NCBI RefSeq assembly: GCF_000165505.1
Contig: NC_014632.1
Span: forward strand, 1,798,001-1,862,000
Direction of reading: 5' to 3'
Length of the DNA: 64,000 nt
From: Ilyobacter polytropus DSM 2926
Lineage (GTDB): Bacteria; Fusobacteriota; Fusobacteriia; Fusobacteriales; Fusobacteriaceae
The stretch's first letter is position 1. Each line of letters begins with the position of its first letter. The notes under the pieces are model-generated. The model was not told the DNA's origin, searched no databases, and saw only the letters and a list, made by a program, of their open reading frames with translations. This document shows, piece after piece, positions 9,628-34,554 of the stretch. The translations under genes were made by a program, and so were the position numbers.

Positions 9628-11550
9628 TTATTTATTTTCATAAAATTTTATTTTAGATTCCTCTTTTATCATCTTCACAAAGTCATCTAATTTCATAGAT
9701 TCCTGATCTTTAGACCCGAATCTTCTTACGTTTACCTCTCTGTTGGCAACCTCGTCTTTCCCAAGGATTACCTGTACAGGAACCTTAAATTTACCATTGG
9801 CTTCCCTTATTTTGTACCCTATACTTTCTGTTCTGCTGTCTATTTCTGCCCTTATTTCTTCCTCTTGTAGTTTCGCCATGATCTCCTTGGCATATGGCAC
9901 TACCTCATCGTTTATCGTAAGAATTTTTACCTGTGTTGGTGCTATCCATAGAGGGAAAGCCCCTGCATAATGCTCTATAAGTATTCCTATAAATCTTTCT
10001 ATAGAACCATAAACAACTCTGTGAATCATTACCGGTCTGTGCTTTTCTCCGTCTTCTCCGATATAGTTTATGTCAAATCTTTCTGGAAGATTAAAGTCTA
10101 ACTGTATAGTTCCGCACTGCCAAGTTCTGCCGATTGCATCTTTGATTTTAAAGTCTAACTTCGGACCATAGAATGCACCGTCTCCAGGATTAATTTTGTA
10201 CTCTTTTCCTAGTCTTTTCATAGCACCTTCTAGTGCAGATTCTGCTTTTTCCCATATTTCATCAGACCCTATTGCTTTTTCAGGTTTGGTAGAAAGCTCT
10301 ATGTTGTATTCAAATCCAAATAAACCACTGTAAAATTTGTCTATCAGTTCTATTACCCCTATAATCTCATCTTCTATCTGCTCAGGAGTCATAAATATAT
10401 GTGCATCGTCCTGGGTAAATGACCTTACCCTCATAAGGCCGTGAAGTGCCCCTGAGAACTCATGTCTATGAACTGTCCCTAATTCCCCTGCCCTTATTGG
10501 CAGATCCTTGTAAGAATGCATCTCCTGCTTATATGCAAGGACTCCTCCTGGGCAGTTCATTGGTTTTATGGCAAATTCAGTTTCGTCTATTTCAGAAGTA
10601 TACATATTCTCTCTATAGTTGTACCAGTGACCAGATGTTTCCCACAGCTCTTTATTAAGCATAATAGGAGTCATTATCTGCTCATATCCCGCCTTAGTAT
10701 GCTCTTTTCTCCAAAGGTCTATCAAAATGTTTCTTATTGTCATTCCCTTAGGCATAAAGAAAGGGAATCCCGGACCATATTCGCTCATGAAAAACAGGCC
10801 AAGTTCTTTTCCTATTTTTCTGTGATCTCTTTTTTCAGCTTCTTCAAGAAATTTCAGGTGAGCCTTAAGCTTCTTTTCATCAGAAAATGCAAATCCGTAG
10901 ATTCTCTGAAGCATTTTATTTTTAGAGTCACCTCTCCAGTATGCTCCTGCTAGAGATTTTAGTTTAAATGCCTTTATATACTTTGTAGAAGGTACGTGTG
11001 GACCTCTGCAAAGGTCCATGAATTCTCCCTGTTTATAGAAAGAAAGCATCTCTCCCTTGGCAATATCTGTTATTATCTCAACCTTATAGTTTTCCCCTAG
11101 TTCTTCGAAGTGCTTTATAGCGTCTTCTCTAGTCATTTCTATTCTTTCGACTTTTATATCTTCTTTGACGATTTTTTTCATTTCAGCTTCGATTTTTACA
11201 AGGTCTTCCTCTGTAAACTGCTCTTTAGGGTCAAAATCATAATAATACCCGTTTTCTATTGCAGGTCCGATGGCAACCTTTGTTTCGGGAAAAAGTCTTA
11301 TAACAGCCTGAGCCATAAGGTGGGCTGCAGAGTGTCTTATTACCTCTTCTCCCTCTTCTGTATCTGGAGTCACAAGTTCTACTTCTGCATCTTTATCTGC
11401 GATATATCTCATGTCCACATATTCTCCGTCTACCTTAGCTGCAATTGCCTTTTTTGCAAGGGAATTACTTATACTCTTGGCAACTTCAAACATATTTGGA
11501 GCATGGTCAAATTCTTTTATATCTCCGCTTGGAAGTGTTATCTTCACCAT
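9628..11550 (-). CDS. thrS: Threonyl-tRNA synthetase
   Basis: Charges tRNA-Thr. The 640-residue protein is full length: TGS domain (1-60), editing domain with HSAAH (73-77) and the later CRGPHV, then the class II core with MNCPGG and the C-terminal anticodon domain beginning near PLWIAPTQVKIL. The ATG follows AGGAGAG. The leader upstream carries a threonine-rich peptide and alternative hairpins, so expression should rise when charged tRNA-Thr is short (see separate entries). No T-box sequence is present. Neighbouring genes are unrelated, so this is a single-gene attenuated operon. Confidence 0.97.
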   Translation of the reverse strand: MVKITLPSGDIKEFDHAPNMFEVAKSISNSLAKKAIAAKVDGEYVDMRYIADKDAEVELVTPDTEEGEEVIRHSAAHLMAQAVIRLFPETKVAIGPAIENGYYYDFDPKEQFTEEDLVKIEAEMKKIVKEDIKVERIEMTREDAIKHFEELGENYKVEIITDIAKGEMLSFYKQGEFMDLCRGPHVPSTKYIKAFKLKSLAGAYWRGDSKNKMLQRIYGFAFSDEKKLKAHLKFLEEAEKRDHRKIGKELGLFFMSEYGPGFPFFMPKGMTIRNILIDLWRKEHTKAGYEQIMTPIMLNKELWETSGHWYNYRENMYTSEIDETEFAIKPMNCPGGVLAYKQEMHSYKDLPIRAGELGTVHRHEFSGALHGLMRVRSFTQDDAHIFMTPEQIEDEIIGVIELIDKFYSGLFGFEYNIELSTKPEKAIGSDEIWEKAESALEGAMKRLGKEYKINPGDGAFYGPKLDFKIKDAIGRTWQCGTIQLDFNLPERFDINYIGEDGEKHRPVMIHRVVYGSIERFIGILIEHYAGAFPLWIAPTQVKILTINDEVVPYAKEIMAKLQEEEIRAEIDSRTESIGYKIREANGKFKVPVQVILGKDEVANREVNVRRFGSKDQESMKLDDFVKMIKEESKIKFYENK

Positions 11551-11609: not shown

Positions 11610-11641
11610 AAAAAAGACCACCTGGTTTTGTCCAGATGGCC
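11610..11641 (-). terminator. Attenuator terminator (regions 3:4) of the thrS leader
   Basis: On the minus strand GGCCATCTGG (11641-11632) pairs with CCAGGTGGTC (11625-11616), with G-U pairs and a 6-nt loop, then six Us. It ends 60 bp before the thrS start codon, so it can only act as a regulated stop for thrS. Confidence 0.85.
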
Positions 11642-11760
11642 TTTCTATCTTAACTTCTAAGATTTCCCCACATAGACACTCACCATTTTAATAATACAAC
11701 ACGGGCTCGTATCCTCAAAGATACAAACCCTTATTTGTTGGTCAATGTGGTTGTTGTGTC
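11630..11760 (-). promoter_or_regulatory. thrS attenuation leader with alternative pairings
   Basis: Region 1 CCACAT (11750-11745) is part of two Thr codons and pairs with ATGTGG (11673-11668). Region 2 GTCTATGTGG (11677-11668) can instead pair with region 3 CCATCTGGAC (11639-11630) in nine of ten positions. That pairing would destroy the terminator. A stable hairpin (GGGTTTGTATC 11730-11720, GATACGAGCCC 11713-11703) directly follows the peptide stop codon, and a small ATCTTA/TAAGAT hairpin lies at 11663-11647. A ribosome stalled at Thr codons would free region 2 and keep thrS on. Confidence 0.75.
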
Positions 11761-11781
11761 AAAAAATACACCGTACAACAT
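11731..11781 (-). CDS. Threonine leader peptide of thrS, 16 aa
   Basis: Reads MLYGVFFDTTTTLTNK and stop, behind AGGAGAGA (11794-11787). Five of sixteen residues are Thr, four in a row (ACA ACA ACC ACA) and one more two codons later. A consensus promoter lies upstream, and a terminator with an alternative antiterminator lies between it and thrS. This is the layout of classical amino-acid leader peptides such as ThrL and PheM. The peptide itself probably has no function beyond ribosome stalling. Confidence 0.8.
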   Translation of the reverse strand: MLYGVFFDTTTTLTNK

Positions 11782-11812
11782 AGAAATCTCTCCTAATATT
11801 ACCTTTTTAAAA

Positions 11813-11841
11813 ATAATATCAAAAACTACTTATTCTGTCAA
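11813..11841 (-). promoter_or_regulatory. Promoter of the thrS leader
   Basis: Minus-strand TTGACA (11841-11836), 17-bp spacer, TATTAT (11818-11813). Transcription should start near 11806, about 25 nt before the leader-peptide ATG. Confidence 0.8.
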
Positions 11842-34312: not shown

Positions 34313-34332
34313 TAAGCTAAATTTAATATTTT

Positions 34333-34554
34333 TAAGATAGAGGTGCAGTGTTCAAAAGTATCTACTGGAATCCGGGCAGGATAATGAAGGTAAGAGAAAG
34401 GGAAGGCTGCCGAAGGAAAGACTATAGCCCATTGTCAATCCTGGTGTTACCGATAATATTGATAACACTGTCATTAAGTTTTCACCTGATGAAGTGCTAT
34501 CGGAATTTTGTTGATTGCAAGGTTGCCGTATGTATTTCGGCAGCCCTTTTTTTT
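34333..34554 (+). promoter_or_regulatory. Lysine riboswitch (L box) with terminator
   Basis: The conserved aptamer blocks are visible: GATAGAGGTGC (34336-34346), AGTATCTACTGGA, GGGAAGGC-TGCCGAAGGAAA (34400-34419) and a later Thr-rich-coded TTACCGATAATATTG arm. The platform is GGTTGCCG (34521-34528) pairing with CGGCAGCC (34538-34545) and eight Ts. CGGCAGCC can also pair with GGCTGCCG in the aptamer (34406-34413). Lysine binding should stop transcription. An ORF of 82 codons in this stretch is not a gene. Confidence 0.92.

Follow-up and report, generated by a model that had tools for sequence, protein, structure and literature searches.

In this study, we analysed a 64,000-nucleotide stretch of DNA from Ilyobacter polytropus DSM 2926 (the window), in which minus-strand positions 11841-11610 hold, in this order, a promoter, a 16-codon threonine-rich leader ORF, a post-stop hairpin and a terminator, with thrS behind them. 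The parts of this leader, listed below with the segments designated L and A to E, were computed directly, as were the conservation, covariation and mutually exclusive pairings considered afterwards.

11836..11841, minus strand: promoter -35 element TTGACA, with a 17-nt spacer to TATTAT (from the sequence)
11813..11818, minus strand: promoter -10 element TATTAT (from the sequence)
11789..11794, minus strand: AGGAGA, the leader ORF's ribosome-binding site (from the sequence; retained in the related genome G043)
11731..11781, minus strand: leader ORF MLYGVFFDTTTTLTNK, from ATG at 11781 to TAA, 16 codons plus TAA (from the sequence and Thr-rich homologs at thrS)
11740..11757, minus strand: segment L, the regulatory Thr codons 9-12 and 14 (ACA ACA ACC ACA TTG ACC; synonymous change in G043, L:C pairing)
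11719..11730, minus strand: segment A, 5' arm of the hairpin, beginning at the nucleotide directly 3' of the stop codon (12 bp hairpin)
11703..11714, minus strand: segment B, 3' arm of the hairpin, complementary to C too (A:B and B:C pairing, covariation)
11691..11702, minus strand: GTGTTGTATTAT (consensus ATTTTGTATTA), adjoining the 3' side of the hairpin (conserved in alignments A1 and A2)
11667..11685, minus strand: segment C, TGGTGAGTGTCTATGTGGG, pairing partner of L, B or D, the antiterminator (pairing statistics)
11632..11641, minus strand: segment D, GGCCATCTGG, 5' arm of the terminator (from the sequence; covarying helix)
11616..11625, minus strand: segment E, CCAGGTGGTC, 3' arm of the terminator (from the sequence; covarying helix)
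11610..11615, minus strand: T6 run of the intrinsic terminator (from the sequence)
9628..11550, minus strand: thrS, threonyl-tRNA synthetase, 640 aa (ORF)

The terminator reads GGCCATCTGG ACAAAA CCAGGTGGTC TTTTTT and lies ~60 nt upstream of thrS. The A:B hairpin (11730-11703; GGGTTTGTATCT TTGA GGATACGAGCCC) has 12 bp and a folding energy of -16.1 kcal/mol, which was equalled in none of 20 shuffles, and its B arm is complementary to 11685-11673. The leader of 201 nt folds at -65.7 kcal/mol, compared with -42.3 +/- 4.1 kcal/mol for shuffles (z = -5.7). Threonine accounts for five of the six residues of the regulatory run ahead of thrS. Both strands of the window were scanned for short RBS-led ORFs in which four or more of six residues are identical, and the thrS leader was the sole ATG-started ORF with five of six. 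By analogy with known attenuators, the TTGTATT stretch 3' of the hairpin may be a candidate RNA polymerase pause site. Two other features of the window were recorded: a long inverted repeat (TTTTGTCACGAAT...ATTCGTGACAAAAAAA, 12010-11913) that separates the lptD-like gene from the thrS promoter and perhaps terminates the lptD-like gene, and a lysine riboswitch aptamer (34330-34507, plus strand, 104.7 bits), which was the sole result of an Rfam scan of the window and is unrelated to the thrS leader.

A sequence-only reading of this DNA had proposed a threonine attenuator that operates by three pairings. The promoter (TTGACA-17-TATTAT), the 16-codon ORF with its RBS and the terminator before thrS all lie where that reading had placed them; CCACAT (11750-11745) is indeed complementary to ATGTGG (11673-11668), and GTCTATGTGG pairs at 9 of 10 positions with CCATCTGGAC (11639-11630), in the region of the left terminator arm. 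Every pairing named in the scheme is present, but the scheme is incomplete, as the A:B hairpin and the B:C complementarity were overlooked, along with numerous sister elements at other loci of the genome. Because a ribosome at the stop codon would also cover the Thr segment, pairing of the Thr codons with C cannot by itself tell a stalled from a finished ribosome; the A:B hairpin and the B:C pairing would supply the distinction that L:C lacks.

All 98 Fusobacteriota genomes of our comparison set have thrS, which is preceded by a Thr-rich leader, an RBS, a post-stop hairpin and a terminator in five genera. Leaders with a Thr run were found in three genomes of the window's own genus (G000, G042 and G043), in P. 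maris G053 (MNSYMIKSTTTTSTTS), in the Ilyobacter MAG G044 (MLGYFSSTTKTTI), in genus g14 (six genomes; MRLLTTTTDTFI and variants) and in G047 (MFKITTTTTNTFYRFGLVR). The leader of a sixth genus, g8 (MNKFINIQITYTAK), has just two Thr codons, yet a long L:C stem. Between G000 and G043 the changes in Thr codons are exclusively synonymous (ACA>ACT, ACC>ACT), and the competing stems are retained with differing sequences in other genera. The alignment of related thrS upstream regions, which the sequence-only reading had suggested as a check, revealed that the Thr run and the stems are conserved in the five genera, and the leader-peptide attenuation of thrS by threonine put forward there is the best explanation for Thr codons and competing stems being kept across genera. 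No leader was found in the many Fusobacterium-type genomes where thrS directly follows an lptD-like gene, and none of 75 thrS loci from other phyla has a Thr leader. On comparative sequence grounds, this conservation is decisive evidence that the thrS leader element is real.

Pairing between the defined segments was evaluated against 1000 dinucleotide shuffles of the spacer with one leader per lineage, and revealed an excess over shuffles in the thrS lineages for L:C (Fisher p 0.0054), B:C (0.0011) and C:D (3.7e-5), and in the combined thrS, tyrS and trpS lineages (3e-6, 2e-9 and 5e-10, respectively), some B arms having been placed by eye from the hairpin. The segments replaced the undivided leader ORF of an earlier duplex test, which, with 60 shuffles, was too coarse for L:C. 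At p<=0.05, L:C was detected in 32, B:C in 30 and C:D in 33 of 54 elements, compared with an expectation of ~3. The window's own leader gave p=0.015 for B:C and p=0.065 for C:D, and its L:C pairing alone was no better than shuffles (p=0.32). B:C was weak in the g14 thrS leaders (p ~0.2), whereas the tyrS and trpS leaders had the strongest B:C, most of them with p 0.001-0.02. Of 21 thrS, tyrS and trpS leaders, 16 have the start of the A:B hairpin between -1 and +4 nt relative to the stop codon. Covariation of A:B and the terminator helix D:E was strong in a 21-sequence alignment in which about half of the A arms were unaligned and counted as gaps, with 90.4% paired cells versus 74.0% when shuffled and covariation of 0.42 versus 0.18 when shuffled and 0.04-0.12 when slid.

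An ORF with a Shine-Dalgarno sequence, a cognate codon run, an intrinsic terminator and mutually exclusive antiterminator and terminator structures linked to the codon run, which are features of a ribosome-mediated attenuator, were all found at this locus. We consider it very probable that the thrS leader is a ribosome-mediated transcription attenuator coupling thrS expression to charged tRNA-Thr and a member of a homologous, modular Fusobacteriota family. As the leader is transcribed, the A:B hairpin and the conserved TTGTATT stretch may pause RNA polymerase. When charged tRNA-Thr is short, the ribosome would stall on the Thr codons and cover L, the A:B hairpin would stay formed, and C would be free to pair with D, blocking the terminator so that thrS is transcribed. 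With ample threonine, the ribosome would run on to the stop codon and cover L and A, and B would take C; with B:C formed, the D:E terminator would form and transcription would stop. In an untranslated leader, an L:C stem would enclose the A:B hairpin, and transcription would stop as well. That the pairings decide readthrough in the cell, and that the polymerase pauses, we infer, as we do the temporal order of the refolding events, because the stop state is weakly supported by the partition-function tests. In those tests, with transcripts of 21 leaders ending before D, the unpaired fraction of C was 0.27 without a ribosome, 0.43-0.50 with a stalled ribosome and 0.39 with a ribosome at the stop codon. 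Among 54 elements, C was freer with a stalled ribosome than with one at the stop codon in 31, and freer than with no ribosome in 37. As long as the right terminator arm is missing, several leaders, that of the window among them, favour C:D even without a ribosome. Equilibrium folding supports the sequestration of C by L, and separates a stalled from a finished ribosome only weakly, so that the switch presupposes kinetic effects.

The arrangement of the Thr leader recurs elsewhere in the Fusobacteriota, in leaders of tyrS (Tyr4-6) and trpS (WIHWW, WWW); those of valS (VVKVVV) and leuA (Leu-rich) have a more diverged version of it. A covariance model (R1) built from the post-stop regions of thrS, tyrS and trpS leaders alone was searched against six whole genomes and gave matches outside its training set at loci that each have an ORF ending near the model start. 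These ORFs are leaders ahead of asd/hom (MFRLTITTTIIIM, Thr/Ile), hisZ (MLRKTFIAFHHHHHC), DAHP synthase (MASQNLTNWYFYYYFRN, aromatic), an amino-acid ABC transporter (MFIKISAISTTIHQHHHI and MFNRSLIFITVHHHHHR) and an AGCS carrier (MNNKNFVTTSYYYYYRNQDLN), with runs of His5-6 at hisZ and ABC transporters and Tyr5-6 at AGCS carriers. An enlarged model (R2), run on the 98 genomes, had members in 56 of them, covering 16 of 29 genera and reaching eight members in a single genome; the thrS leader was its sole match in the window (E 7e-11). R2 added leaders ahead of asnA (Asn4-6), a PutP-like symporter (putP, Pro; ...NRQPIPPR), an NSS transporter (Trp3; ...FWWWP) and a TrpX-like binding protein (Tyr6), and NCBIfam backs the names asnA, DAHP synthase, agcS, hisZ-like, PutP-like and TrpX-like. 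At least three of six identical residues occur in 52 of 65 inspected non-training matches, among which those from close relatives are not independent, versus 2.0% of random positions. R2 had no match in 0.51 Mb from 75 thrS loci of other phyla, and in eight whole genomes outside the phylum a single match had E < 0.01. The latter (G099 C2:216033-216161), from Sedimentibacter, is probably real because it combines a His4 leader and the family core with a hisZ-like gene; its presence in a Firmicute would reflect either transfer or an older origin of the family. A search of five genomes provided no convincing leader before pheS, ileS, hisS, serS or proS, and four weak R1/R2 matches (L353, L355, L356 and L410), none with a fitting leader ORF, were dismissed as chance.

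Several individual loci merit description. Ahead of asd/hom in G000 (C1:758102-758601), two sensors stand in series before one gene, a Thr/Ile attenuator (L343 703-835) and a tandem glycine riboswitch (L343 1059-1202). Four valS leaders (L283, L284, L285 and L194) are Val-rich (MPKNRVVKVVVKQTS etc.), have a conserved GGTCAAAGT...GTAGCTATGAC pairing and a terminator, and were not matched by R1 or R2; their sequences suggest a divergent attenuator. Leu-rich leader ORFs and terminators precede leuA-type genes at five loci (L245 to L249). In the trpS leader of G043, a Trp codon is TGA, which shortens the peptide to ...NWIH with one Trp left. In Anaerotignum (G098 C1:451223-451355), an Ile-rich leader ORF (MFNTMFANVIISIIILIID...) and a terminator before an ilvB-like gene were matched weakly (E 0.08). 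A leader, MKRFREAMCMS, ahead of a metN-like ABC ATPase in another family of the order (G084 C1:1162478-1162597) is a possible Met-sensing member of the family.

Two known classes of RNA were considered for these leaders. T-boxes (RF00230) are rare, the model having a match in 20 of the 98 genomes, two above the cut-off, and none at thrS in any of the 98 or in the window; two weak T-box matches in G000 (C2:76647-76894 and 78580-78809, E ~1e-13) are below the cut-off and lie away from thrS. The sole repeated in-register match among 4227 Rfam families was the 'trpB motif' RF04312, at 26 of 40 sister elements, with the first stem of the motif over B:C and the second over the terminator. Its scores were 23.9 bits in the window and 52.4 bits (E 7e-5) in the best relative, all under the gathering cut-off of 59, and the thrS leader is therefore not classed as a member of RF04312. 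The layout of RF04312, namely P1, an antiterminator in the right shoulder and then a terminator, is present in the his, his-transporter and DAHP-synthase leaders, where P1 lies on B:C and P2 on D:E. RF04312 has >900 copies in Firmicutes and Fusobacteria, ahead of varied genes that are mostly amino-acid transporters, and its authors graded it as a strong candidate for a riboswitch but did not dismiss classic attenuation (PMC11109978).

Both that grading and the in-register matches speak for a metabolite riboswitch in which the post-stop RNA (A:B, C and the terminator) binds an amino acid or derivative and the ORF is incidental. However, the core is much alike for His, Tyr, Trp, Asn, Pro and Thr genes, it is the codon run that changes with the gene, and a single aptamer reading six amino acids is unlikely. 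As the complementarity of A, B and C also accounts for the conserved bases, we regard a riboswitch as highly improbable, and the RF04312-like elements, all scoring below the cut-off, look like leader-peptide attenuators instead. The cognate codon runs favour attenuation in the Fusobacteriota, a single case having been seen in Firmicutes. In E. coli, thrS is under autogenous control by threonyl-tRNA synthetase, which binds a tRNA-like operator in the leader, across the start site of thrS, and by this precedent the synthetase would bind its own leader here, with C or its surroundings perhaps mimicking a tRNA-Thr arm and the small ORF having no sensing role. That possibility appears close to negligible, as the structure is at least ~60 nt upstream of the thrS start with a terminator at its end, and the architecture is common to non-synthetase genes (hisZ, asnA, putP, transporters).

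A third alternative retains attenuation and simplifies its logic: L:C, C:D and D:E would suffice, the A:B hairpin would do no more than pause the polymerase, and B:C would merely follow from the likeness of C to A. This is consistent with the number of elements in which L:C beats shuffles (32 of 54) or C is freer under a stalled ribosome than under one at the stop codon (just 31 of 54), and with the minimum-energy fold of the window's own leader, in which a long L:C stem encloses A:B. On the other hand, B:C beats shuffles in 30 of 54 elements, most strongly in the tyrS and trpS leaders, P1 of RF04312, which aligns to B:C, is reported to covary (PMC11109978), and without B:C a ribosome at the stop codon would leave C free. 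We therefore find the simpler logic rather doubtful and favour ribosome-mediated attenuation with B:C as a working part.

Beyond thrS, the data probably reflect one homologous, modular attenuator of the Fusobacteriota, composed of a codon cassette with exchangeable runs and an A/B/C/terminator core, that controls synthetases, biosynthesis and transporters in response to at least His, Tyr, Trp, Thr, Thr-Ile, Asn, Pro or mixed aromatics, with the trpB motif as its non-coding half. Ribosome-mediated attenuation is an old kind of control; what is new is the phylum, the use at thrS and tyrS with strong comparative support, the core shared across amino acids and the rereading of an orphan riboswitch candidate. 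Some of these loci may be listed in a survey from 2010 on attenuation in operons for amino acids and aminoacyl-tRNA. Our literature search, mostly of papers available without subscription, found no leader peptides in Fusobacteria, and to that extent the claim of the sequence-only reading that such control was undescribed in the phylum holds for leader peptides, but RF04312 was already known in Fusobacteria as a riboswitch candidate (PMC11109978). A 2010 paper stated that, its own hisS case apart, no leader peptides were known beyond Proteobacteria and Actinobacteria (PMC2965389). With this family, a phylum in which T-boxes are rare would have its own general sensor of tRNA charging, in which attenuators for different amino acids share a single detectable RNA core. 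The leaders also predict what some transporters of unknown specificity carry, namely Tyr (AGCS carriers), Trp (NSS carriers) and His (an ABC transporter). In addition, the orphan riboswitch candidate from the literature can be tested directly as an attenuator that depends on translation.

Comparison with known systems places these elements among several precedents. Like T-boxes (RF00230), they would control synthetase genes via tRNA charging through a terminator; T-boxes, however, sense tRNA directly and had no match at thrS. RF04312/SRC-39-1 resembles them in having P1 on B:C followed by a terminator, and in its occurrence in Fusobacteria at varied amino-acid genes, but was published without a leader ORF (PMC11109978). 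In Streptomyces lividans, a weak Thr leader has been proposed before thrS, likewise a Thr-containing peptide ahead of that gene, but it has two Thr in 18 residues, a leaderless transcript and no clear terminator, and comes from RNA-seq of one genome (PMC8079986). Leader peptides of other synthetase genes, trpS/leuS in Streptomyces (PMC1262725), cysS in Rhodobacterales (PMC8632094) and hisS paralogs in Bacillus (PMC2965389), also have a cognate codon run before the gene and a terminator, but are single-gene cases and form no common-core family. The classic E. coli trp, his, thr and pheST attenuators likewise have a short translated ORF of cognate codons, exclusive stems, a terminator and the gene behind. 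In contrast to these, the fusobacterial hairpin starts 3' of the stop codon and C nearly repeats A, the phylum is another one, and the family has one homologous non-coding core for many amino acids, and as a result one RNA model finds all of its members.
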